Shown in pieces: positions 8,084 to 43,075 of a DNA stretch of 43,076 bases; within the stretch, counting starts at the first letter, position 1, and each line of letters opens with the position of its first letter. Made by a program: the position numbers and the translations under genes. Location: positions 1 through 43,076 of the forward strand of contig CACMZN010000017.1 of NCBI GenBank assembly GCA_902618175.1. The letters run 5' to 3'. Under the pieces are notes generated by a model. That model saw nothing but the letters and a program-made list of their open reading frames with translations. It did not search any database and was not told where the DNA came from. Origin of the DNA: an uncultured Verrucomicrobiota bacterium (GTDB lineage Bacteria > Verrucomicrobiota > Verrucomicrobiia > Opitutales > Seribacteraceae).

Positions 8084-9283
8084 CTAAGGACCCAACTTCC
8101 AAAGTTTCTTGTCCGACCGAATGAAGACACCCTCTCTGGTCAGAGCGGGAGTACAAAGAATGGTGTCGTCAAGTTCAATGGTTCGAATCACTTCCCCAGT
8201 TGAATCTCCCAGACGAACGATCTGACCAAGTCCGGTTTCACTAAATACGAAAAGATGCTTTTCACTCATGACTGGGGAACCGCTCAAAGGACCTTTGAGG
8301 CGCAGTCTCCACAGAATCTCTCCATTTTCCAACGAGGCGCAGGTTAGGACGTTGGCGTTGTTGATGACGTAGGTTTTGTCATCGATTATGCTTGGACTTG
8401 GCGTTCCGGGTTTTAACTTATTGTCTTTCCAAAGGGTTTCGGGTCGGATTCCATTTTGGTTAATTCTAAGCGCCGTAAGACCATTTGAAGGAACCACCAG
8501 GATGTCTTTTCCCGACCAGGCACTGGAGGGAATGGTCGAAGCGCCTTCATCAAAAGACCAAATTTGTTCCCCAGAGTTTGGCTCGATTGCAGAGATTCCA
8601 TCTTTTGATTGTAGGACAACTACTTCTCTTCCTCCCTGATTAATTACGATCGGTGAAGTCCAATTGGCTGCTCTGGGACGGTTTTTTTTCCAGACGGTCG
8701 TACCATTCCTCAGATTAAGTCCTGCCGTGAAGGAATAGGCGTCGTTTTCAACCTGTATGATGGCCATTCCTTGTGCAATGACTGGAGAGGAAGACATTCC
8801 CAGACCGTTGGCCGCATTGGGATAATCAAAAGTCAATCCACGCAACCAACGCAAATTGCCAGACAAATCTAAACAAAACACATCGTTCGAAGAGAACTGG
8901 GCCAGGATTACTTTGCCATCGCTAGCCAAAGTAGAGGCCGCCACACAAGTTTTGGAGTGGCAAATGGTCCTTCCGGTAGCTTTGTATATTCTCTCCCATT
9001 CAAGATTTCCATCATTTGAATTGAAGGCAAGGAGATGAAGATTTTCTTGATTGGATCCACTGCAAGCGGAAACGAAGACCAAATCTCCAACCACGATCGG
9101 ACTCGACAATCCTCGGCCAGGTAATTTTTCAGACCAACTCGACTTTCCCTCCAGCGAAATCTCGTAAGGTGTGCATTCATCAAAGGCTCCGTTGCCATTG
9201 TTTCCACGAAAGCCGAACCAGTCGGCGTGAGCGTCGATACAGACGAAAAAAGTCAAGAGCAGGGGCAAACAAGGAATTTTCAT
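8084..9283 (-). CDS. Secreted PQQ-like beta-propeller protein
   Basis: This 399-aa protein has a Sec signal peptide (MKIPCLPLLLTFFVCIDAHA, cleavage before DWFGFRG). The rest is built of PQQ/BamB-type blades, recognisable as repeats such as SSPIVVGDLVFVSA, LLAFNSNDGNLEWER, SGNLRWLRG and GEILWRLRLKGPLSGSPV. The WFGFRGNNGNG start of the mature part is typical of propeller proteins from Verrucomicrobia and Planctomycetes. I chose the ATG at 9283 over a TTG at 9301 because it gives a clean signal peptide. It sits 26 nt downstream of the HEAT-repeat gene and is probably in the same operon. Whether it binds a quinone cofactor or only acts as a scaffold cannot be told from sequence. Confidence 0.85.
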   Translation of the reverse strand: MKIPCLPLLLTFFVCIDAHADWFGFRGNNGNGAFDECTPYEISLEGKSSWSEKLPGRGLSSPIVVGDLVFVSACSGSNQENLHLLAFNSNDGNLEWERIYKATGRTICHSKTCVAASTLASDGKVILAQFSSNDVFCLDLSGNLRWLRGLTFDYPNAANGLGMSSSPVIAQGMAIIQVENDAYSFTAGLNLRNGTTVWKKNRPRAANWTSPIVINQGGREVVVLQSKDGISAIEPNSGEQIWSFDEGASTIPSSAWSGKDILVVPSNGLTALRINQNGIRPETLWKDNKLKPGTPSPSIIDDKTYVINNANVLTCASLENGEILWRLRLKGPLSGSPVMSEKHLFVFSETGLGQIVRLGDSTGEVIRTIELDDTILCTPALTREGVFIRSDKKLWKLGP

Positions 9284-9309
9284 TTTGTCACTATGGTTCA
9301 ATTTTTATT

Positions 9310-25096: not shown

Positions 25097-26659
25097 TTAA
25101 TTGTTAATATCCAAGCTTATCAGATGCTCCGCCCTGCGAATCAACAGTTGGGACCCGACAGGTGTAGGTGAAGCGCATTTCAATGCATTAACCTTAAATT
25201 TTTCTCCAAGATGTAAATTTTCTGCTGAAGCATCAAAGGCCCTCAGGAAAGAACCACTTGTCTCAAAGGCCAAGATGGTGTCCTTGACCAGTACGGGAGA
25301 GGAGATGTCATGTTTTGATGGAATTTTTCTTAAAGTTTCTCCTGTGAAAAGGTCAATGCACAGACGCATGCCAGATCCAATCAAAAATACCTTGCCGTCA
25401 TAGATGATTGGACTGGAATCACAACGACGAGTATGTTTAGGAAAGCGCCATATTTCCACGATGGAATTTTTCTTCATTTGATATGCAATGATCCCCACTT
25501 CCTTAGGCTTTCCGTGTACCACCAAATAATTACCTTCTACTACAGGGGTGGAATTTCCACCACCTGATCCTGCCCAAACCGTTTTTCCCGATTGAGGATC
25601 CACGGCACAAACTTTCTTATTTGAATTACAGACCAACAACTTGGCGAATTTAGATTTCCATAGAATGGGAGAACCTGCCTTTCCCTTGACTTCGTCGTTT
25701 TCCCAGATTAATTCGCCGCTATTTGCTTCATAAGCTCTGAGGTTTCCTGCCAAGACATAGACTTTTCCGTCGTAAAAAAGTGGTGAACTTGCAACCCCGT
25801 GCTGATGAATTTCATTTTCCCAAAGTAATTCTCCAACCTCGGCATCTAAACAAAATATTCTTTTTCCCCCCACAGCAAAGACTTTTCCTTCTGCTATGCA
25901 AGGAGTGGAGGAAGAGTTTCTTCCTGTAGGAATACCTGGAAGAGAAGTCTTCCAAACCATTTCTCCATTCCTTAGGTCAAGGGCCACCACCACATCTTCG
26001 GCTACTCTTTTGGTGGGTGGTACAGCTTTCCTAACCAATTCCTTGATCCGAAAATCAAAATCCTGCTCATTTATCCAACCATCCAGTTCTTCTTGATTAG
26101 CAAATACTTTTCCCTTGATTTGAAAAAGTTTTTCGATAACTGGGACGGGAATTGCCAATTTACCTTTTCTGAATCTTGATGCCAACAAACTTCCTTGGAT
26201 CATTCTTTCAGATTGAGTGAGGTTTTCAAGCAACCAATTTTCTATCCATTCCTCGAGCTTACCTCCACGGAGTCTGGGATTGAGAGAAGCTCGATCAGAT
26301 TCTGCTTTGCGAATAATTTCTTTTGATAAATTGATTTTGCGGACGCCAAGTTGCCTCAAGACCAAATCATTTATGGTTCGTTCCTCGCTAGGTATGTCTC
26401 GATGCCAGACAATCGATAAGTAAGCATAGATCCCGTCAGAAATAATACTTCCGAAACCTCCATCACTTTGGCTCGGTAATGGGGGGCTTTGCCAAAGGAC
26501 TTCTGGGGGTTGTTTTTCCCATGCAAGGTTCAAAGTGAGTTTCCCAAGTTCTTTTCCGTTTCGATTTGGTCCTCTCCATTGAGGCCAAGAAAAAGATTCC
26601 GAAAAAAGCGTAGAAATTTCTGCGGTCAAAAGGATAACTAAATAAAGTAGGAGTCTCAT
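25097..26659 (-). CDS. Secreted PQQ-like beta-propeller protein with helical insert
   Basis: This 520-aa protein has a Sec signal peptide (MRLLLYLVILLTAEISTLFS). Mature PQQ/BamB-type blades follow, beginning PQWRGPNRNG. An insert of about 130 residues (roughly 85-225), rich in charged helices and reading like a multi-helix bundle, interrupts the first blades. After it the propeller continues with VVALDLRNGEMVWK, IFCLDAEVGELLWE, LRAYEANSGELIWE and CAVDPQSGKTVWAG. The PQWRGP opening is typical of large Verrucomicrobia/Planctomycetes propeller proteins. It is probably periplasmic. The ligand is unknown. It is a single gene, with a 316-nt region upstream. Confidence 0.84.
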   Translation of the reverse strand: MRLLLYLVILLTAEISTLFSESFSWPQWRGPNRNGKELGKLTLNLAWEKQPPEVLWQSPPLPSQSDGGFGSIISDGIYAYLSIVWHRDIPSEERTINDLVLRQLGVRKINLSKEIIRKAESDRASLNPRLRGGKLEEWIENWLLENLTQSERMIQGSLLASRFRKGKLAIPVPVIEKLFQIKGKVFANQEELDGWINEQDFDFRIKELVRKAVPPTKRVAEDVVVALDLRNGEMVWKTSLPGIPTGRNSSSTPCIAEGKVFAVGGKRIFCLDAEVGELLWENEIHQHGVASSPLFYDGKVYVLAGNLRAYEANSGELIWENDEVKGKAGSPILWKSKFAKLLVCNSNKKVCAVDPQSGKTVWAGSGGGNSTPVVEGNYLVVHGKPKEVGIIAYQMKKNSIVEIWRFPKHTRRCDSSPIIYDGKVFLIGSGMRLCIDLFTGETLRKIPSKHDISSPVLVKDTILAFETSGSFLRAFDASAENLHLGEKFKVNALKCASPTPVGSQLLIRRAEHLISLDINN

Positions 26660-34522: not shown

Positions 34523-37500
34523 TTAATCTTTTTCAAAAGGGAGCCATACCTTTTGGTTATTTAAATAATATCGAAGAGGTCTTGATCTGAAATTGAAAAA
34601 GACCCAGTCCTGAATTTCATCGGACCAACAATAATTTTCAAAAAAGGCGGCTTCATTAGTCCACAACCATCCTAAATGGTTGCTCCAGAACCATAAGCTT
34701 TTCTCGTCCATCAGATGAGGTGCGATCCAACCGAAATGGTCATGAAAAGACCATGTAGGAGAATCTTGAAAAAAGATTCCGAACCAGGACTGATGCCAAC
34801 CATTGTTCAAATTTCTCATCACTTTGAGTGAGGAGAGTATTCTGGTAGAGTAGTATGTTGGGGGTATGTCTTGGAAATTAAACAATATCCAACTCTGAAA
34901 ATTATCTGACCAGCAATAATTTTGAGAAAAAGTTTCTTCTTCAGTCCAGAGCCATCCGTATTCCTGGGTCCAAAACCAGATCTGCTCATCCTCAGTTTGA
35001 TAGGTAAGGATCCATCCGAAATTTTCATGATGATACCAAAGAGAAGAGTCCTGATAAAATGCTCCAAACCAAGATTGGTACCAACTAGGACCGAGTATCG
35101 AGGTATTGCTGAGGTCGGAGAGCCTTCTATGCGAAAAAACTGCAGAAATCTGTCGATTTTGAATCATGCTTACTGAAGTGTTCAGGGCCCCAGGATCGTT
35201 AATGCCTGAACCAGTCCAGCCAATAAATTCGGATCCAAAATTCGGCCTCGCGGAAATCACTGGGTTGCTCCCATAGCTGTATGTTCCAGATCCTGATACC
35301 GAACCTCCACCTGAAACGCTCACCTCAAGATCATAAGTTTTCAATGAAAAATGCGCAGTCACCGTTTGGTGGCTTTTCATTTCCACAAATGAAGAGATCG
35401 AATCGGTTTCTTGTATGCTTGAACCAGACCAATTCTGAAAAAAGTATCCTTGATTTGGGATAGCTTCGATGAAAGCCATGGTTCCATGAGCAAAAATACC
35501 ATCACCGATGGCAAATCCTCCCACTGAACTTTGTACGTCAAGTTCGTATCGATTCAGCGTAAAATTTGCAGATGCATTAAGATCTTTGGTCAGGTTGATC
35601 GAAGTGGAGTATGAAGAGGGATCATCGATGTTTGATCCTGACCAACCAGTGAACGAGTAGCCTTCGAGAGGTGTTGCAATTATCTGAACTTGCGTGCCAT
35701 AGGGATAATTTCCCTGTCCCTCGACGTTCCCTCCAGGATCATTGAATAATTTAAGTTCATAGGAATTAATTGAAAAAACAGCAGAAATATTACGATCTTT
35801 ATCCATCGAAACAAATGTACTTTGCCGATAAGGTTCTTCAATTCCAGATCCAGACCAGTTTACGAATGTATAACCTTCAGAAGGAAAAGCAACGATTGGC
35901 GCTTTTTCCTCGAATCCAAAGATTCCGTCTCCATTCAATGTTCCTCCGATTGCATCATTGATTATCAGTTCGTAAGAAGATGGGGAGAACTCTGGTGTTA
36001 TCATTCTGTCGGCGACCATCTCAACATAGGTTACAGCAGAATTTGGATCTGCAGGTCCCATACCACTCCATTTTGTGAAATTATATCCTGATTTTGGTAT
36101 TGCCTCGATTCTTGCTCGGGTTCCGAAATCGTAAATTCCGCTCCCGATTGAATTCCCCTCCTTAACTTCTTCAATGGCAAGCACGTGTGAATTAATCGAG
36201 AAATGCGCTGTAAGGGTAAGATTCTCTGAGATTTTGATTTTGGTTGATGAAGTTGTTGGATTTCCCGACACATCTCCGCTCCAATAAGAAAATGAATACC
36301 CTTCAGCGGATTCCGCCGAAACTTCGACTTCCTCACCAAATTCATAAATTCCTTCTCCCATCACCACACCCGAATCCTCCGGAAATGATGAAGTTGAAAG
36401 ATTATATGATTTGGGTCTAAAAACAGCAGTTATGTTTCGATCATCAATCATTTTAACAGTGGTAGTCTCCAAGTTTGGTTCCTGAACCCCGTTTCCAATC
36501 CATTCTGTGAAGAAGAATCCATCCGCAGGAATTGCGGAAATGGTCACGACTTGTTCTTGATCATATGATCCAGATCCATAGGTGAATCCACTGGAAGGAG
36601 GCTCTGCAACTATGATGAGATTTTTGTAGTTTTCGTCATTAGTTGAAAAGATGGCTGATATGGTTTTGTTTTGGTCAACAAGTACGGTTGTGGAGGGAGA
36701 TTGTGGATCAGAAATGCCTACGCCATCCCAGTGTGAAAAAACGAACCCAGCCTTTGGGAATGCGAAAATGGGAGCCATGGATCGATGTTCATATAATCCT
36801 GTTCCCCCCGCATCGCCCTTTTGGCTTTCAAAATTGATGGTGAGCAAATGATTTTCAGGAGTGAAACTTGCAAAAATAGTTTTATCCCTGAGAATTTCAA
36901 CTTTGGTTGTGCTTGAGTTTGGGTCTTCGACTCCATCCCCGAACCACATTTCAAATTTGTAACCGTACTCTGGGTATGCTGAGACATCAACTTCAGAACC
37001 GAAGGAATACGAACCCGAACCACTGACGGAACCACCTATTCCCGCAGTGAGGTTTAGGTCATGTGTATTGGAGGAGAAGGAGGCAGTGACATTCTGATCT
37101 TTTTCGATGTTCAGATAGGTAAGTGAGGAAAAGGGATCCTCTATGTTGTCACCAAACCATTTGTCGAAGAAAGAGCCTTCGTTTGCCTTGGCTTGAATTG
37201 GTACTCGATCGGCAAAGGAATAGGTGCCGGAACCACTGGCAGAACCACCGTTTGTAGCATTTACCTGGAGCTCATATGAATTGAGTGAAAAAAGGGGCAA
37301 GACGAACCGATCCATCGTCATGCTGACGGTGGTGATCGGGCTTTCCCTGTTCATAATCCCACTACCTGTCCATCCATGAAATGAATATCCTTGATTAGGA
37401 GTAGCTGAAATGGGTGCGTTTTCCCCATATGTGTAAATGCCGGTGCCCGAAACTTTTCCACCAATCAAATTACTGGAGGAAAGAGTGTGTTTATTGAGCT

Positions 37501-38869
37501 GAAAAAAAGCAGTTACAGTAATAGGTGAAGTTACCTCAAACGACAATTCATCTGATTTGACAGATGGATCCATACTCCAACTCGAAAAACTGTAACCAAG
37601 GTTGGAACGAGCCTTGAGCGTAAGAGTCGTCCCTTGGTTGTAAATTCCAGATCCTTCTACAAGACCAGCAACTTCTGGTGAAGTTTTCGTCGTAACTTGG
37701 AAGCTTGGCCAAGAACCGGATTTATTTTGAACTCTTCCAAATTGAGGCCAGTCTGATTTGGCTGGAGTTGTATCTATTCTTATGGAATATAATTTGCCAT
37801 CCAAGGAACCAAAATAGAGGTTTCCAAAAGCATCCAAGGTCAATGGCGTATCCACTAATCCATCAATGGAATAACTCGAATCATCCGAACTCGATACCAG
37901 ATTGCCATCTTCATTCAGGCAGTACAATTTGTTTTTTCCACTACCGGTGTAAGCTACCAAGTAAATCCTACCATGCTCATCTATCACAGGTGAACTGTAG
38001 AAAACGTCACCCACAAGAATTTCCCATTGGTTAACCCCCGTCATTATATCGATCGATCTCAGGTATCCGTCTCTTGAAGCAAATAGAACTTGACCAGAGA
38101 GACCGATCACGGGACTTGCGTCCACCCGGTCACCGGTAAGATACTTCCAATTTAGTCTTGCCTGATATTCCTGGTCGCTGAGTGAATAGCAGTACCCGTT
38201 TCCGCTTCCAAACAGAAGATTTCCCGTAACGTCGATTGCAGGGGAAGACAAAATTGAGTTTTTTGCATTCCCTACTTGTTCAGTCGAGTAAATCCACTTT
38301 AATGAACCGTCGGGTTTGAGGGCGTGAAAATTTCCTCCTTCATCCCCAAAGTATACGGTACCGTCCCTTCCAAGCACCGCCGATGAAGAAATCGGATTTC
38401 CCGCAAAGTAGTCCCAAGAGAGGGATCCATCTGCGTTCAAAGCATAAAAAAACTCATCGTGCGATCCGAAATATATTTTTCCATCAGCACCTATGGAAGG
38501 CGTCGAGGTTATACTGCTGTTTGTCTTGAATTCCCAAATTTTGGTACCATCAACGGATCGCAAAGCATAAAGGTGATTGTCCCATGATCCAAAATAAAGG
38601 ACGCCATCACCGCTTATGGATGGTGAGGAATCAATCCAATCCTGAGCCAAAAAGCTCCATTTTTCGGTACCATCTGGATTCAAAGCTCTTAATTTGTTGT
38701 CATTGGAGCCAAAATAAATGATCCCTTCTTGGGAGACGGATGGAGAGGACATAATCGCACCCTCGGTTTCAATGGACCATTGCAGGTTACCAGTTGCCAC
38801 CGCATTCGTGTGCGATTGGATGAATACCATGGCGATGATGCCTATTGTTGAATAACAAGATATATTCAT
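34523..38869 (-). CDS. Giant secreted protein: PQQ-like propeller, 12 InlB-type repeats, two Trp-rich C-terminal modules
   Basis: This is a 1448-aa protein. A signal sequence (about 1-25) is followed by a PQQ/BamB-like propeller (about 28-385) with blades such as GIIYFGSNDNKLRALNPDG and GVLYFGSWDNHLYALRS. Twelve tandem repeats of about 72 residues (about 390-1250) follow. Each carries a GG-x-G-x-G-x-Y/F core, Y-x-F-x-x-W and a closing (A/T)xF, the pattern of divergent InlB B-repeats. Two tandem Trp-rich modules (about 1260-1340 and 1355-1438) share WFG, FGWI, WFW, GWLWT and YCWSD. No LPXTG or other known anchor is seen. It is probably surface-exposed or released; binding or sensing roles are guesses. 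The larger repeat gene lies 171 nt upstream on the same strand. Confidence 0.85.
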   Translation of the reverse strand: MNISCYSTIGIIAMVFIQSHTNAVATGNLQWSIETEGAIMSSPSVSQEGIIYFGSNDNKLRALNPDGTEKWSFLAQDWIDSSPSISGDGVLYFGSWDNHLYALRSVDGTKIWEFKTNSSITSTPSIGADGKIYFGSHDEFFYALNADGSLSWDYFAGNPISSSAVLGRDGTVYFGDEGGNFHALKPDGSLKWIYSTEQVGNAKNSILSSPAIDVTGNLLFGSGNGYCYSLSDQEYQARLNWKYLTGDRVDASPVIGLSGQVLFASRDGYLRSIDIMTGVNQWEILVGDVFYSSPVIDEHGRIYLVAYTGSGKNKLYCLNEDGNLVSSSDDSSYSIDGLVDTPLTLDAFGNLYFGSLDGKLYSIRIDTTPAKSDWPQFGRVQNKSGSWPSFQVTTKTSPEVAGLVEGSGIYNQGTTLTLKARSNLGYSFSSWSMDPSVKSDELSFEVTSPITVTAFFQLNKHTLSSSNLIGGKVSGTGIYTYGENAPISATPNQGYSFHGWTGSGIMNRESPITTVSMTMDRFVLPLFSLNSYELQVNATNGGSASGSGTYSFADRVPIQAKANEGSFFDKWFGDNIEDPFSSLTYLNIEKDQNVTASFSSNTHDLNLTAGIGGSVSGSGSYSFGSEVDVSAYPEYGYKFEMWFGDGVEDPNSSTTKVEILRDKTIFASFTPENHLLTINFESQKGDAGGTGLYEHRSMAPIFAFPKAGFVFSHWDGVGISDPQSPSTTVLVDQNKTISAIFSTNDENYKNLIIVAEPPSSGFTYGSGSYDQEQVVTISAIPADGFFFTEWIGNGVQEPNLETTTVKMIDDRNITAVFRPKSYNLSTSSFPEDSGVVMGEGIYEFGEEVEVSAESAEGYSFSYWSGDVSGNPTTSSTKIKISENLTLTAHFSINSHVLAIEEVKEGNSIGSGIYDFGTRARIEAIPKSGYNFTKWSGMGPADPNSAVTYVEMVADRMITPEFSPSSYELIINDAIGGTLNGDGIFGFEEKAPIVAFPSEGYTFVNWSGSGIEEPYRQSTFVSMDKDRNISAVFSINSYELKLFNDPGGNVEGQGNYPYGTQVQIIATPLEGYSFTGWSGSNIDDPSSYSTSINLTKDLNASANFTLNRYELDVQSSVGGFAIGDGIFAHGTMAFIEAIPNQGYFFQNWSGSSIQETDSISSFVEMKSHQTVTAHFSLKTYDLEVSVSGGGSVSGSGTYSYGSNPVISARPNFGSEFIGWTGSGINDPGALNTSVSMIQNRQISAVFSHRRLSDLSNTSILGPSWYQSWFGAFYQDSSLWYHHENFGWILTYQTEDEQIWFWTQEYGWLWTEEETFSQNYCWSDNFQSWILFNFQDIPPTYYSTRILSSLKVMRNLNNGWHQSWFGIFFQDSPTWSFHDHFGWIAPHLMDEKSLWFWSNHLGWLWTNEAAFFENYCWSDEIQDWVFFNFRSRPLRYYLNNQKVWLPFEKD
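34560..35095 (-). repeat. Two tandem copies of a Trp-rich module (encoded)
   Basis: The modules are about 80 residues each. Copy 1 has SWFGAFYQDSSLWYHHENFG, IWFWTQEYGWLWTEE and NYCWSDNFQSWILFNF. Copy 2 has SWFGIFFQDSPTWSFHDHFG, LWFWSNHLGWLWTNE and NYCWSDEIQDWVFFNF. The shared skeleton is WFGxF, W, H, GWI, WFW, GWLWTxE, WSD, W and NF. A single copy ends the neighbouring giant protein. I do not recognise it as a named domain. Confidence 0.7.
35120..37703 (-). repeat. Twelve divergent InlB-type repeats (encoded)
   Basis: Twelve protein repeats are encoded by about 215 nt each. The consensus core is GGxxxGxGxYxYGxxxxIxAxPxxGYxFxxWxGxGIxxPxSxxTxVxMxxDRxIxAxFxxxSY. At DNA level no two units look identical, so this is an old array rather than a recent expansion. 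The first unit is the most divergent, lacking the W-x-G-x-G core. Confidence 0.75.
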
Positions 38870-39040: not shown

Positions 39041-42000
39041 TCATGGACTAAAGGGCTCCCATCTTGAATCTTGATAATTGAAGGCCCAAGGTGATTCATA
39101 AGAATAAAAGTTTACGTACAGCCAATTTTTTTCTCTATCAGACCAATAATAAGAACCGGTGGGGTTACTCAGACTTTCTTGCGTCCATAACCATCCCCAA
39201 TTCGAATGCCAAAACCACACCCTACTTGAATCTCCGGAGACGGGATAAATCCATCCTAAATCCATATGACGACACCATCCTGAATCCAATTCCATGAATG
39301 AACCAAACCATTGAGACGAAAACCAGAGGTTTTGATGATCTTGCGTTTGAAAAACGTCTGATAGATTTTTTTTCTCAAAATGAGCGGAGATTTCTTCATC
39401 TTGAAGCATTGTGATTTCACTGAGTCTCGAGTTTGAATCGGTTATGTTTTGACCCACCCACTCAATGAATGAATACCCTTCTGAAGGGATCGCCAAGATG
39501 GTAGCTGAGGCTCCAGATGAGAAAAAACCTTCTCCATAGGCCTCGCCACCTTTCGTTGAAGATATGGACAGTCTATAGCCTTTGTTGGAAAAAAGAGCTG
39601 TAATTTCCAGATTATTCGTTAGGATCACTGTCGTTGTCGATGAAAGAGGATTTTCCACTCCTTCTCCATCCCACATATTAAAGGAATATCCTGAATTGGG
39701 AATCGCAACAATCGGAACTTGCGACCCGTATTCAAAGAATCCAGATCCGGAGGCTGTTCCACCAGTTGATGCATTGACAGAAAGATAAATCGAATTTTGT
39801 GAAAATATTGGTTTGATATTCCGATCCTGAGTCATCCTAACCACAGTCGTTGGAATGGTTGGATTAACTACTCCCGAACCCTCCCAACCGATGAAGGAAT
39901 AGCCAACCTCCGGATGAGCGGAAACTTCAGCTGTGGTACCGTATTCAAAAATACCTGCTCCAGATGCATAACCCCCGTTACTCTCTGAAATTTGCATTTT
40001 AAATGAATTGATTGCAAAGCTTGCTGTTAAGTTTCTATCTTCCGTCATAACGATATGGGTAGATGTATTTTCCGGGGCAACCGGACCCTCCCCGATCCAA
40101 CCCGAAAATGAATATCCTGGATTCGGAAAAGCAAGGATTTCCACATTGGTTGCGTACTCGTAAATCCCACTACCAGATGTGCTTCCTCCTTCGGTTGAGG
40201 AAGTTTTCAATTCATAGGAGTCAATCGAGAAATGAGCTTGAATTTCGCGGTTCTCAGTCATCTTAACAGTCGTCCTCATTGCAGTCGGATTCGATACCCC
40301 AATTCCACTCCAATTAATGAATGAATGACCGTTTTCAGGATAGGCAACCAAAGGAGCCTCCGATCCATAGGGAAAAATCCCTGAACCGGAGGCAATGCCT
40401 CCTGAGCTCGATTCAACCAGAAGAGAATGAGAATCGATCAAGAAGTGAGCAGTGACCATACGATCTTCAGTCATTCGAACCTTTGTGGATTCGGAATCAA
40501 CGTTGATGATACCATGTCCGCTCCAATTCATGAAAGAATAACCTTCGCTGGGAAAGGCTTCGATGCCGGCTTCTGTTCCATAATCGTAAGAGCCTGAACC
40601 TGTAGAAGTTCCACCATTGCCTGAAGTTACATCCAGTAGGTGTGAATTAATTTGAAAATCGGCGTAGAGATTACGATTCATAGTCATGTCAACGGTAGTA
40701 TTTGGAGATGAAGGATCCAAAACACCTGAGCCTACCCACTGAACAAACGAATATCCAGGGTCTGGGTAAGCGGATATACTGGCTTCCGTTCCAAATTCGA
40801 AAGTCCCCGTGCCTGAGAAATTTCCTCCGGTGGAAGCCTCGATGGTGAGAAAATAAGTATTCGATGAAAAAGTGGCGCTGATATTTCGATCCTCGGTCAT
40901 TTCAACGTTTGTGTATGGCATACTTGAATTTTCAAATCCGTCACCGTTCCATTGAACAAACGAAAATCCTGAGTCAGGAGTCGCGAGGACACTGGCTTTA
41001 GAACCATATTCGAATGTGCCGATTCCGGATATGGTACCACCAGGGGACTGGATTGCTTCAAGTTGATATGAGTTGATTAGAAAGACTGCAGTAATGTTTC
41101 GGTCATTGGTCATGATAACGGAGGTGATTGGTGAGTTTGGGTTTTCAATGCCGTTCCCTGTCCATCGAACAAAGGAATATCCCGAATTCGGCTGTGCCTC
41201 AATCTCAGCATATTCTCCATATTCGAAAGTTCCATTTCCCAAAATCGTACCTCCATAAGTTTGGTTCGTCACAAGAGTATGGGTGTTGGTCAAAAAAACG
41301 GCCGTTATGTTCTTGTCTTTGTCCATACTTACCGAAGTGACGTTTGAAGAAACGGATGCAACGCCTTCCCCTTCCCATCGGTCAAAGGAGAAGCCTGGGG
41401 AAGGAGTGGCGGAAATCATCACCTGAGCTCCAAGTTCATAACTTCCGGCTCCCATAGTGCTGCCTCCACGATTTGGAGAAGATACAGTTATGAGTATTTC
41501 CTTATCGGAAGATTTCTTGATGAAATGAGCTTGAATTTCCTGAGATTCCTTGATGAGAATTGTAGTAGAAGGGGAATACAGTTCATTGATTCCGTTTCCT
41601 TCCCAATGAGAAAAAGCATAACCACTCAAAGGAAATGCGTTAATCGGAGCGTAATGACCATGTGCAAAATTACCTTCGCCTGATGCAGAACCACCTTCGT
41701 CGGAAATTATGCTTAGATTGTAAGAGTACCTTGAAAAGGTTGCTGCCAACGAACGGTTTTGCTTCATTAAAACGGTAGTCGAAGATAGATCGGATTCCTC
41801 AGTACCCTCACCTGACCAACCAGAGAAGAAATATCCATCATCTGGAAAAGCATGGATAAGAGCAGTTTCACCATGAGCAAATTGTCCCCCTCCGGATACT
41901 GATCCGCCTTCTCCTGCAGATAAGTTCAAGGAATAAGAGTTTAAAGTGAAACTTGCGAATAGAGAGATGTTTTCATTCATACTTACGAGAGTGGATTCGC

Positions 42001-43075
42001 TGAGATAATCTGTGATTCCCGAACCAGACCATCCGGAAAAGGAATATCCGGACTCAGGATTTGCATTTATGGAAACGGTTGAACCATGGGGGTATTTCCC
42101 TTGACCAGAAACCGTACCACCTTCACCAGAAGATAAATTCAAGGTATATTCATTTAAAATGAAGATTGCATACACGGAACGAGCTTCGGTCATGCTGACA
42201 GTGGTTTCAGGTTTATCGAGGTCGGTGACGCCTTCTCCTGCCCATCTGGAGAAAGAATATCCAATGTCGGGCATCGCATTGACGGAAACGAGAGAGCCGT
42301 GGGAGAACTCACCATCACCGGAAACTGAGCCCCCTTCACCAGCGGATAAATTCAGGACGTATTTATTCAATGAAAAAGTAGCGGAAACAGTGCGAGCTTG
42401 GTTCATATGGACGGTGGTGAAGGGAGCGCTAGGATTACTCACTCCATTACCCAACCATCCGGAAAAAGAGTATCCATTATAAGAAGAGGCTACTATAGGA
42501 GAAAGCATTCCATGAGTGAAGTTTCCTTCGCCTGTTACCGTGCCTCCTTCCCCGGCGGACAATCGCAAAGGATAAGAGTTGGGTGAAAAGATGGCTGAAA
42601 GGGTTCGAGCCTCGGTCATTGGAACTGTGGTTGTAGAAGAATGCGGGTCGTCCGCTCCAGCTCCGAACCAGTGGGAAAATCCGTATCCAACCTCGGAAGT
42701 TGCGGAAATCGGAGCGATCATACCATGTGAAAAGTTCCCGGTTCCTGAAACCTGCCCGCCTATCCCAGCCGACAAGAGCAAAGGATAAGAGTTCAATCTG
42801 AAGGAAGCGAGAACCGATCTTTCAGCCGTCATTTCCACGACTGTTGAGGAAGCACTGGCATTGCTAACCCCTTCCCCAGACCAGCCGGTGAAAGTGTACC
42901 CCTCATCTGGGGTTGCGGTAATTGAGGCGAGGGAACCATGTACAAAACTTCCAGTCCCGGTAACCGATCCACCTTCACCGCCTGTCAGAACCAAGGCATA
43001 TTCGTTTAATGAAAAAGTTGCTGAAACCACCCTGGGTTCAGTCATGCTGATGGTGGTTGAGAGAGCATTGTCATC
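39041..43075 (-). CDS. Giant InlB-type repeat protein with Trp-rich C-terminal module, 5' end outside window
   Basis: The frame runs through the right edge. The codons before the first internal ATG (43045) read DDNALSTTIS, which continues a repeat, so the N terminus, signal peptide and any head domain are not visible. What is seen, at least 1344 residues, is one partial and 17 complete repeats of about 71 residues. A ~100-residue C-terminal part follows, with one Trp-rich module (QWFGSF, DLGWIYP, VWFWHSNWGWLWTQES, YYWSDREKNWLYVNF). The first seven repeats are of an 'HG' subtype (for example LSAGEGGSVSG, FSHG) and the later ten of a 'YG' subtype (FEYG). It is probably cotranscribed with the 1448-aa paralogue downstream. 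Secretion is inferred by analogy. Confidence 0.82.
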   Translation of the reverse strand, partial: DDNALSTTISMTEPRVVSATFSLNEYALVLTGGEGGSVTGTGSFVHGSLASITATPDEGYTFTGWSGEGVSNASASSTVVEMTAERSVLASFRLNSYPLLLSAGIGGQVSGTGNFSHGMIAPISATSEVGYGFSHWFGAGADDPHSSTTTVPMTEARTLSAIFSPNSYPLRLSAGEGGTVTGEGNFTHGMLSPIVASSYNGYSFSGWLGNGVSNPSAPFTTVHMNQARTVSATFSLNKYVLNLSAGEGGSVSGDGEFSHGSLVSVNAMPDIGYSFSRWAGEGVTDLDKPETTVSMTEARSVYAIFILNEYTLNLSSGEGGTVSGQGKYPHGSTVSINANPESGYSFSGWSGSGITDYLSESTLVSMNENISLFASFTLNSYSLNLSAGEGGSVSGGGQFAHGETALIHAFPDDGYFFSGWSGEGTEESDLSSTTVLMKQNRSLAATFSRYSYNLSIISDEGGSASGEGNFAHGHYAPINAFPLSGYAFSHWEGNGINELYSPSTTILIKESQEIQAHFIKKSSDKEILITVSSPNRGGSTMGAGSYELGAQVMISATPSPGFSFDRWEGEGVASVSSNVTSVSMDKDKNITAVFLTNTHTLVTNQTYGGTILGNGTFEYGEYAEIEAQPNSGYSFVRWTGNGIENPNSPITSVIMTNDRNITAVFLINSYQLEAIQSPGGTISGIGTFEYGSKASVLATPDSGFSFVQWNGDGFENSSMPYTNVEMTEDRNISATFSSNTYFLTIEASTGGNFSGTGTFEFGTEASISAYPDPGYSFVQWVGSGVLDPSSPNTTVDMTMNRNLYADFQINSHLLDVTSGNGGTSTGSGSYDYGTEAGIEAFPSEGYSFMNWSGHGIINVDSESTKVRMTEDRMVTAHFLIDSHSLLVESSSGGIASGSGIFPYGSEAPLVAYPENGHSFINWSGIGVSNPTAMRTTVKMTENREIQAHFSIDSYELKTSSTEGGSTSGSGIYEYATNVEILAFPNPGYSFSGWIGEGPVAPENTSTHIVMTEDRNLTASFAINSFKMQISESNGGYASGAGIFEYGTTAEVSAHPEVGYSFIGWEGSGVVNPTIPTTVVRMTQDRNIKPIFSQNSIYLSVNASTGGTASGSGFFEYGSQVPIVAIPNSGYSFNMWDGEGVENPLSSTTTVILTNNLEITALFSNKGYRLSISSTKGGEAYGEGFFSSGASATILAIPSEGYSFIEWVGQNITDSNSRLSEITMLQDEEISAHFEKKNLSDVFQTQDHQNLWFSSQWFGSFMELDSGWCRHMDLGWIYPVSGDSSRVWFWHSNWGWLWTQESLSNPTGSYYWSDREKNWLYVNFYSYESPWAFNYQDSRWEPFSP
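39060..39345 (-). other. Trp-rich C-terminal module, single copy (encoded)
   Basis: This is the same skeleton as the two modules of the adjacent gene: WFG, W-x-x-H, GWI, VWFW, WGWLWTQE, YYWSD, W and NF. It lies at the extreme C terminus (about 10 Trp in 85 residues), followed only by a short tail ending EPFSP. Sharing of the terminus but not of the repeat subtype or copy number suggests that the module has a function of its own. Confidence 0.7.

Follow-up and report, generated by a model that had tools for sequence, protein, structure and literature searches.

A small tryptophan-packed domain common to dozens of unrelated, apparently secreted proteins in bacteria of the order Opitutales

The window, i.e. 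the whole stretch of 43,076 nucleotides analysed here, is a contig (C17) from the genome of an uncultured Verrucomicrobiota bacterium of the order Opitutales; the assembly (G000) comprises 2.03 Mb and is 67% complete. Towards one end of the window lie two large genes whose products share a tryptophan-rich module (Table 1). Protein 1 consists of an N-terminal hydrophobic stretch, by eye likely a signal peptide, a PQQ/BamB-like beta-propeller (residues about 66-365), 12 InlB B-repeats (Pfam: PF18998) and two copies of the module; protein 2 is built from 17 InlB B-repeats and one copy. The window encodes two more PQQ/BamB-like propeller proteins, at 25097-26659 and 8084-9301, both on the minus strand; neither is matched by copy 3 as query or by the 15-copy profile described below.

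Table 1. Positions of the two host proteins and the three module copies in the window.
Feature	Position	Strand	Description and basis
Trp-rich module copy 2	34526..34810	-	extreme C-terminus of protein 1; sequence comparison and profile match
Trp-rich module copy 1	34835..35092	-	in tandem with copy 2, short linker between; sequence comparison and profile match
Trp-rich module copy 3	39044..39340	-	C-terminus of protein 2; AlphaFold mean pLDDT 87.8, ten strands (39044-39343 modelled)
Protein 1	34523..38869	-	1448 aa; ORF and Pfam
Protein 2	39041..43075	-	at least 1344 aa, 5' end cut by the contig end; ORF and Pfam

The initial annotation had reported three Trp-rich copies, two of them in tandem, and all three are indeed present and mutually related. 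Identity is 51% over 79 aa between copies 1 and 2 (E 2e-31), 38% over 88 aa between copies 3 and 2 (E 1e-15) and 38% over 68 aa between copies 3 and 1 (E 9e-16), all as single-comparison E-values. In a search of the source genome with a profile of 15 of its own copies (alignment A1), which was built with the three window copies included, these are recovered at E 4e-25, 1e-23 and 4e-23. The positions given at the outset were correct to within a few dozen bases; the extent needs revision, since the module measures about 92 residues instead of 80 and copy 2 reaches to 34526.

The suggestion that this domain is undescribed holds within Pfam, NCBIfam and the sequences of the PDB, where no credible match was obtained. 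For the two window proteins, compared with Pfam and NCBIfam at E ≤ 10, neither database assigns a family credibly to the module region. In Pfam at E ≤ 10, a threshold at which the HMMER filters discard most matches above about 0.1, the matches of fifteen members are stray and confined to single members; a strong hit to a characterised Pfam domain, an outcome named at the outset as refuting, is not among them. For 31 members searched against NCBIfam at E ≤ 1, the one match listed is weak (0.025), links a single member to a sortase model and is not credible. DUF4123 (0.004) and the sortase model are rejected as the identity of the module, both being single-member matches. Among PDB sequences, the A1 profile yields one match (1.9), to a chain of a type II restriction enzyme, which we likewise dismiss as one weak chain, and the profile of 31 copies (alignment A3) yields none. 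A description of the module was not found in the literature searched, in which few subscription journals and preprints are covered.

The family within the source genome is large. Copy 3 as a lone query returns 16 matches at E ≤ 1, the last few of them weak and one of these (L015) probably false; the 15-copy profile returns 24 at the same threshold. Sixteen of the 24 span the model from position 2-3 to 75-91, and eight begin only at positions 16-46. These partial matches (L031-L038, on contigs C33, C41, C5, C14, C16 and C23) cover the later part of the module alone, from model position 16 in L031 and from positions 37-46 in the others, and they hint at a module made of separable hairpins. Two of them (L036, L037) lie near the N-terminus ahead of what looks by eye like leucine-rich-repeat sequence, and L038 is an ORF of 90 aa. 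Where all candidates were scored in other genomes, 52 matches were counted in G119, 27 in G134 and 29 in G158 (E ≤ 0.01), and 60 in the single-contig genome G358 (E ≤ 0.001). The consensus of 31 copies (A3) reads GgGWyeSdWFGtF...WIYHeeHGWLY.......lWFWDpeLGWLWTnesvYPylYS.....WLYf.......FYdfs...W; all 31 share W7, G9 and W69 (numbering after the first sequence).

The distribution of the module is bound to one lineage. In a phylum-wide sample it is present in at least seven of 288 genomes (E ≤ 1e-4), five of which belong to the order of the window, its own genome counted, and two lie elsewhere. In a sample of the order, the 31-copy profile finds it in at least 80 of 273 genomes and at least 31 of 88 genera (E ≤ 1e-5); as 18-19 candidates per genome were scored in both searches, these counts are lower bounds. 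All 36 sampled genomes of the window's own family possess it (counted by eye). In the other 193 of the 273 genomes no match was obtained at 1e-5 among the 18-19 candidates scored in each, and this, together with the profile E-values, rules out chance richness in tryptophan. A scan of named genomes returned 27 stretches, 10 of which were confirmed as carrying the module; the confirmed carriers include Opitutales bacterium BM_Day8_Bin.4 and Super_Day6_Bin.11, Verrucomicrobia bacterium GSL.Bin15, TMED44 and TMED56, and uncultured Verrucomicrobia bacterium AG-891-C06 and AG-919-G08. Deeper sampling of an outlying family found the module in one of 11 genomes (E ≤ 1e-4): G023 has seven shortened matches (contigs C20 and C45; L044, L048, L052, L208-L214), three of them listed with an internal stop codon, and its 10 relatives have none at that threshold. 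The module of G023 was possibly acquired by transfer. One search each of viral contigs and of plasmids gave no confirmed relative and no match, respectively.

The module was initially described as always C-terminal. This is correct for the window, provided that the tandem is taken as one unit, but not for the family. Among 80 full non-redundant modules from 143 loci, 69 have their end at most 25 residues before the stop codon, eight end farther from it, one of these being the first copy of the window tandem, and three are followed by at least 497 residues without a visible stop. The 143 loci are mostly best matches; hence we took a fuller look at two genomes. For G119, 40 of the 52 matches were fetched, giving 41 ORFs, and the count was restricted to the 36 complete ones of at least 150 aa: in 32 the module ends within 25 residues of the stop, and in the other four it starts at residues 44, 48, 91 and 150. 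For G358, 40 of the 60 matches gave 43 ORFs, three of which are cut and were dropped. In 28 of the 40 complete proteins the module lies no more than 25 residues from the stop; in 11 it starts at residues 29-47, directly behind the signal peptide, and one has a 55-residue tail after it. The pattern asked for at the outset, a C-terminal-only spread over unrelated proteins of one phylum, is found with one reservation: the hosts are many and unrelated, they belong to one lineage, and the placement is mostly, though not exclusively, C-terminal. A mostly internal position, the other outcome named as refuting, is not observed. In most hosts, then, the module sits at one or other terminus of the mature chain and is not tied to the C-terminus. 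There are mid-chain exceptions: in L172 (G119) the module begins at residue 150 of 353, and in L030, L060 and others hundreds of residues lie beyond it. Copies are nearly always single; among the ORFs with 88 non-redundant modules, the two-copy ORF of the window is the sole one. Three adjoining paralogues of G358 (L218-L220; C1:838070-844855), 525-531 aa long, all have the module directly behind the signal peptide; L218, the only one of them scanned, has no Pfam match.

For copy 3, AlphaFold2 (with 14 sequences) predicts an all-beta domain of ten strands (pTM 0.78; mean pLDDT in Table 1), and a second member, L062, is predicted with the same number and order of strands, which in both models follow the order of the sequence. 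The lower confidence for L062 (pLDDT 67.1, pTM 0.58) calls for caution on the predicted fold. In most strands, consensus and model place aromatic residues as i,i+2 pairs. By eye, a four-unit hairpin repeat is suggested inside the module; profile comparison of the units supports it weakly (P 0.003 for units 2 and 4, 0.04 for units 2 and 3, and 0.066-0.68 for the remaining four pairs).

What do the proteins that carry the module have in common? We scanned 50 hosts with Pfam, 30 from G119 and 20 from G358; they were picked by us and not at random, and the G358 set is weighted toward N-terminal copies. The enzymatic domains are diverse: purple acid phosphatase, reprolysin, subtilase (in both genomes), endonuclease I, Exo_endo_phos, cyclophilin, multicopper oxidase (two hosts), a beta-lactamase fold, nucleoside hydrolase, histidine phosphatase and metallophosphatase. 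Other domains are serpin, fasciclin, FGE-sulfatase (a sulfatase-modifying factor), TonB_C, PPDK_N, CAP, DM13 and DUF1800, and the repeats found are FG-GAP, PATR, BNR, PQQ and Ig. Twelve of the 50 have no Pfam match at E ≤ 1e-5. A recognised glycoside-hydrolase, polysaccharide-lyase or numbered CBM domain occurs in none of the 50; one generic Beta_helix and one Laminin_G_3 were seen. Two hosts (L149, L169) possess a BACON domain, which is a putative binding domain according to Pfam and which we take to be carbohydrate-associated. Sulfatase matches, fragments included, number 59 in G000, 32 in G119, three in G134 and 33 in G158, and none of these 127 matches from four genomes shares an ORF with the module when the coordinates are compared by eye; the tag therefore does not mark every exported protein. 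The 59 matches within the 2.03 Mb of G000 (on contigs C7, C10, C25 and others) amount to a very high density.

A hydrophobic, signal-peptide-like start was recognised in 31 of the 36 G119 module proteins versus 21 of 45 other ORFs from the same stretches, by a crude home-made hydrophobicity rule with free choice of start codon, whose background is accordingly that 21 in 45. A possible lipobox is present in two of the 36. One G119 protein (L170:928-1665) has an N-terminal hydrophobic stretch, the module and then a TonB_C domain, an arrangement that would suggest a periplasmic copy.

Endonuclease I offers a view of the module as an exchangeable part. This domain was found at 24 places in 16 of the 273 genomes of the order: eight have the module as tail, 12 have a different tail (judged by eye), one has another domain and three run off the locus. 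In the alternative tail, a DxDGDGxxN-like stretch precedes a domain whose last strand is FxRxRV-like, both recognised by eye. Seven genomes (G119, G158, G322, G333, G350, G398 and G405) contain both kinds, the second tail of G398 being recognised by its DPDGDG stretch only. One catalytic domain with alternative tails is the pattern that would be expected of an add-on localisation tag. The carriers of the alternative tail (L187, L189, L191, L193, L194, L199, L201-L205 and L207) include genomes of family f3 without the module, and this tail may itself be another localisation tail.

The reading that we prefer, with a probability of roughly one half, is that the module is a lineage-specific, stand-alone all-beta domain which serves as a general docking or retention tag of exported proteins. 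Family, spread, placement mostly at an end of the mature chain, mixed hosts and predicted strands come from computation, and the course of events would be as follows. An ordinary Sec signal peptide would take the hosts out of the cytoplasm, as the crude signal-peptide rule suggests; the module would then fold and, via its aromatic-rich sheet, attach to a single partner shared by all hosts in the envelope or at the cell surface, perhaps a coat polysaccharide made by the cell itself or a receptor in the outer membrane. As a result, soluble secreted enzymes and adhesins would be kept from loss to the surrounding water. In favour of this tag are the high, lineage-bound copy number, the unrelated hosts, the placement at chain ends, the excess of signal-peptide-like starts by the crude rule, the predicted ten-strand domain and the exchangeable tails. 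Several observations stand against it. The copies are nearly always single, and many wall-binding repeats are multiplied; the placement at chain ends could reflect gene-end fusion alone; and the mid-chain copies (L172, L030, L060), the TonB_C host L170, the BACON hosts L149 and L169 and the untagged sulfatases do not fit easily. Of the three roles proposed at the outset, a surface or envelope anchor fits best, while a strict C-terminal sorting signal and a substrate-binding CBM have both lost ground.

Mixed cargo and a mostly extreme C-terminal placement would also be expected if, in the manner of the T9SS C-terminal domain (CTD), the module were read by an unknown route of translocation across the outer membrane, which exports its host to the surface. 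Counted in favour of such a route are also a search for SprA_N, of the T9SS translocon, with no match in any of 10 module-bearing genomes and no positive in the control genomes either, and exosortase, which does not track the module. No gene for a machine was identified, however, and a tandem exists in protein 1. The position directly behind the signal peptide in 11 of 40 G358 proteins is the main argument against cleavage of a C-terminal signal, and it favours docking or retention instead; four of the 36 G119 proteins are also not C-terminal, three of them starting at residues 44-91. A strictly C-terminal signal is rejected on these grounds, and the translocation route as a whole we regard as unlikely. 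The aromatic pairs in most strands of the consensus recall glycan-binding sheets, which often carry i,i+2 pairs, and a carbohydrate-binding module that directs enzymes to substrate polysaccharides outside the cell (algal glycans, for example) would suit both a source genome rich in sulfatases and the two BACON hosts; yet the absence of glycoside-hydrolase, polysaccharide-lyase and numbered CBM domains from the 50 scanned hosts and of the module from all 127 sulfatase matches makes such a role quite improbable, and as the main role substrate targeting is rejected. A protein-protein docking unit, which assembles the hosts on a scaffold like dockerin, or a mere stabilising cap would agree with mostly terminal, single copies on mixed cargo, and we give this very little weight; conservation of the degree observed (W, WFG, H, GW, W) would presumably be more than a simple cap requires.

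Docking or retention at the envelope remains the preferred function, and it bears on a wider question: nothing found here accounts for how Opitutales bring giant adhesins and dozens of secreted enzymes to their place outside the cell. With 24-60 matches in each of the five fully counted genomes, this domain offers a handle on extracellular placement, and its function, if settled, would allow the localisation of many proteins without other annotation to be predicted. A small Trp-packed domain is common to one end of dozens of unrelated, apparently secreted proteins in these little-studied bacteria, most likely as a tag that holds them at the envelope. More tentatively, and with less than even odds, we envisage an undescribed protein-localisation system of Opitutales, in which a Trp-lined all-beta tag at either chain end would be served by a dedicated envelope receptor or export machine, operating, in these Gram-negative bacteria, beside exosortase and in place of a T9SS.

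Terminal docking and sorting modules are a known kind; the present family and its use at both ends were not found described in the searches made. The module resembles PEP-CTERM in being multi-copy on diverse exported proteins. PEP-CTERM is a C-terminal homology domain of this type, first met in a verrucomicrobium and defined by a Pro-Glu-Pro motif, a transmembrane helix and a basic cluster at the C-terminus (PMC1569441). The present module differs in its length of about 92 residues and its predicted all-beta fold, and alignments A1 and A3 contain no PEP motif, transmembrane helix or basic end. Exosortase occurs in 202 of 273 genomes of the order, compared with at least 80 for the module, and in 68 of the 80 module genomes (by eye); 32 listed genomes of family f3 have exosortase, and none of them is among the module matches listed. 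Because the distributions differ, we reject exosortase as the partner of the module.

The T9SS CTD of Bacteroidota is alike in being beta-rich and C-terminal and in occurring, within one lineage, on numerous unrelated proteins exported by Sec. It is cleaved after export, and NCBIfam includes models of T9SS sorting domains, for which the 31 members gave no credible match (E ≤ 1). Unlike that domain, the present module is also used directly behind the signal peptide. SLH and dockerin, too, are terminal docking modules on many unrelated exported proteins; they adopt helical or calcium-loop folds, in contrast to the all-beta prediction here, and neither is listed in Pfam for the 15 members. A further likeness is to the choline- and glucan-binding repeats (Pfam CW_binding_1 and kin), beta-hairpin units of about 20 residues with GW...WYY-like aromatics, which are terminal on varied exported enzymes. 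The present module shares the mostly terminal position, the aromatics and the varied exported enzymes, and its ten predicted strands may form similar hairpin units; no choline- or cell-wall-binding repeat model is listed for the 15 members at E ≤ 10 in Pfam, and the internal repeat signal is weak.
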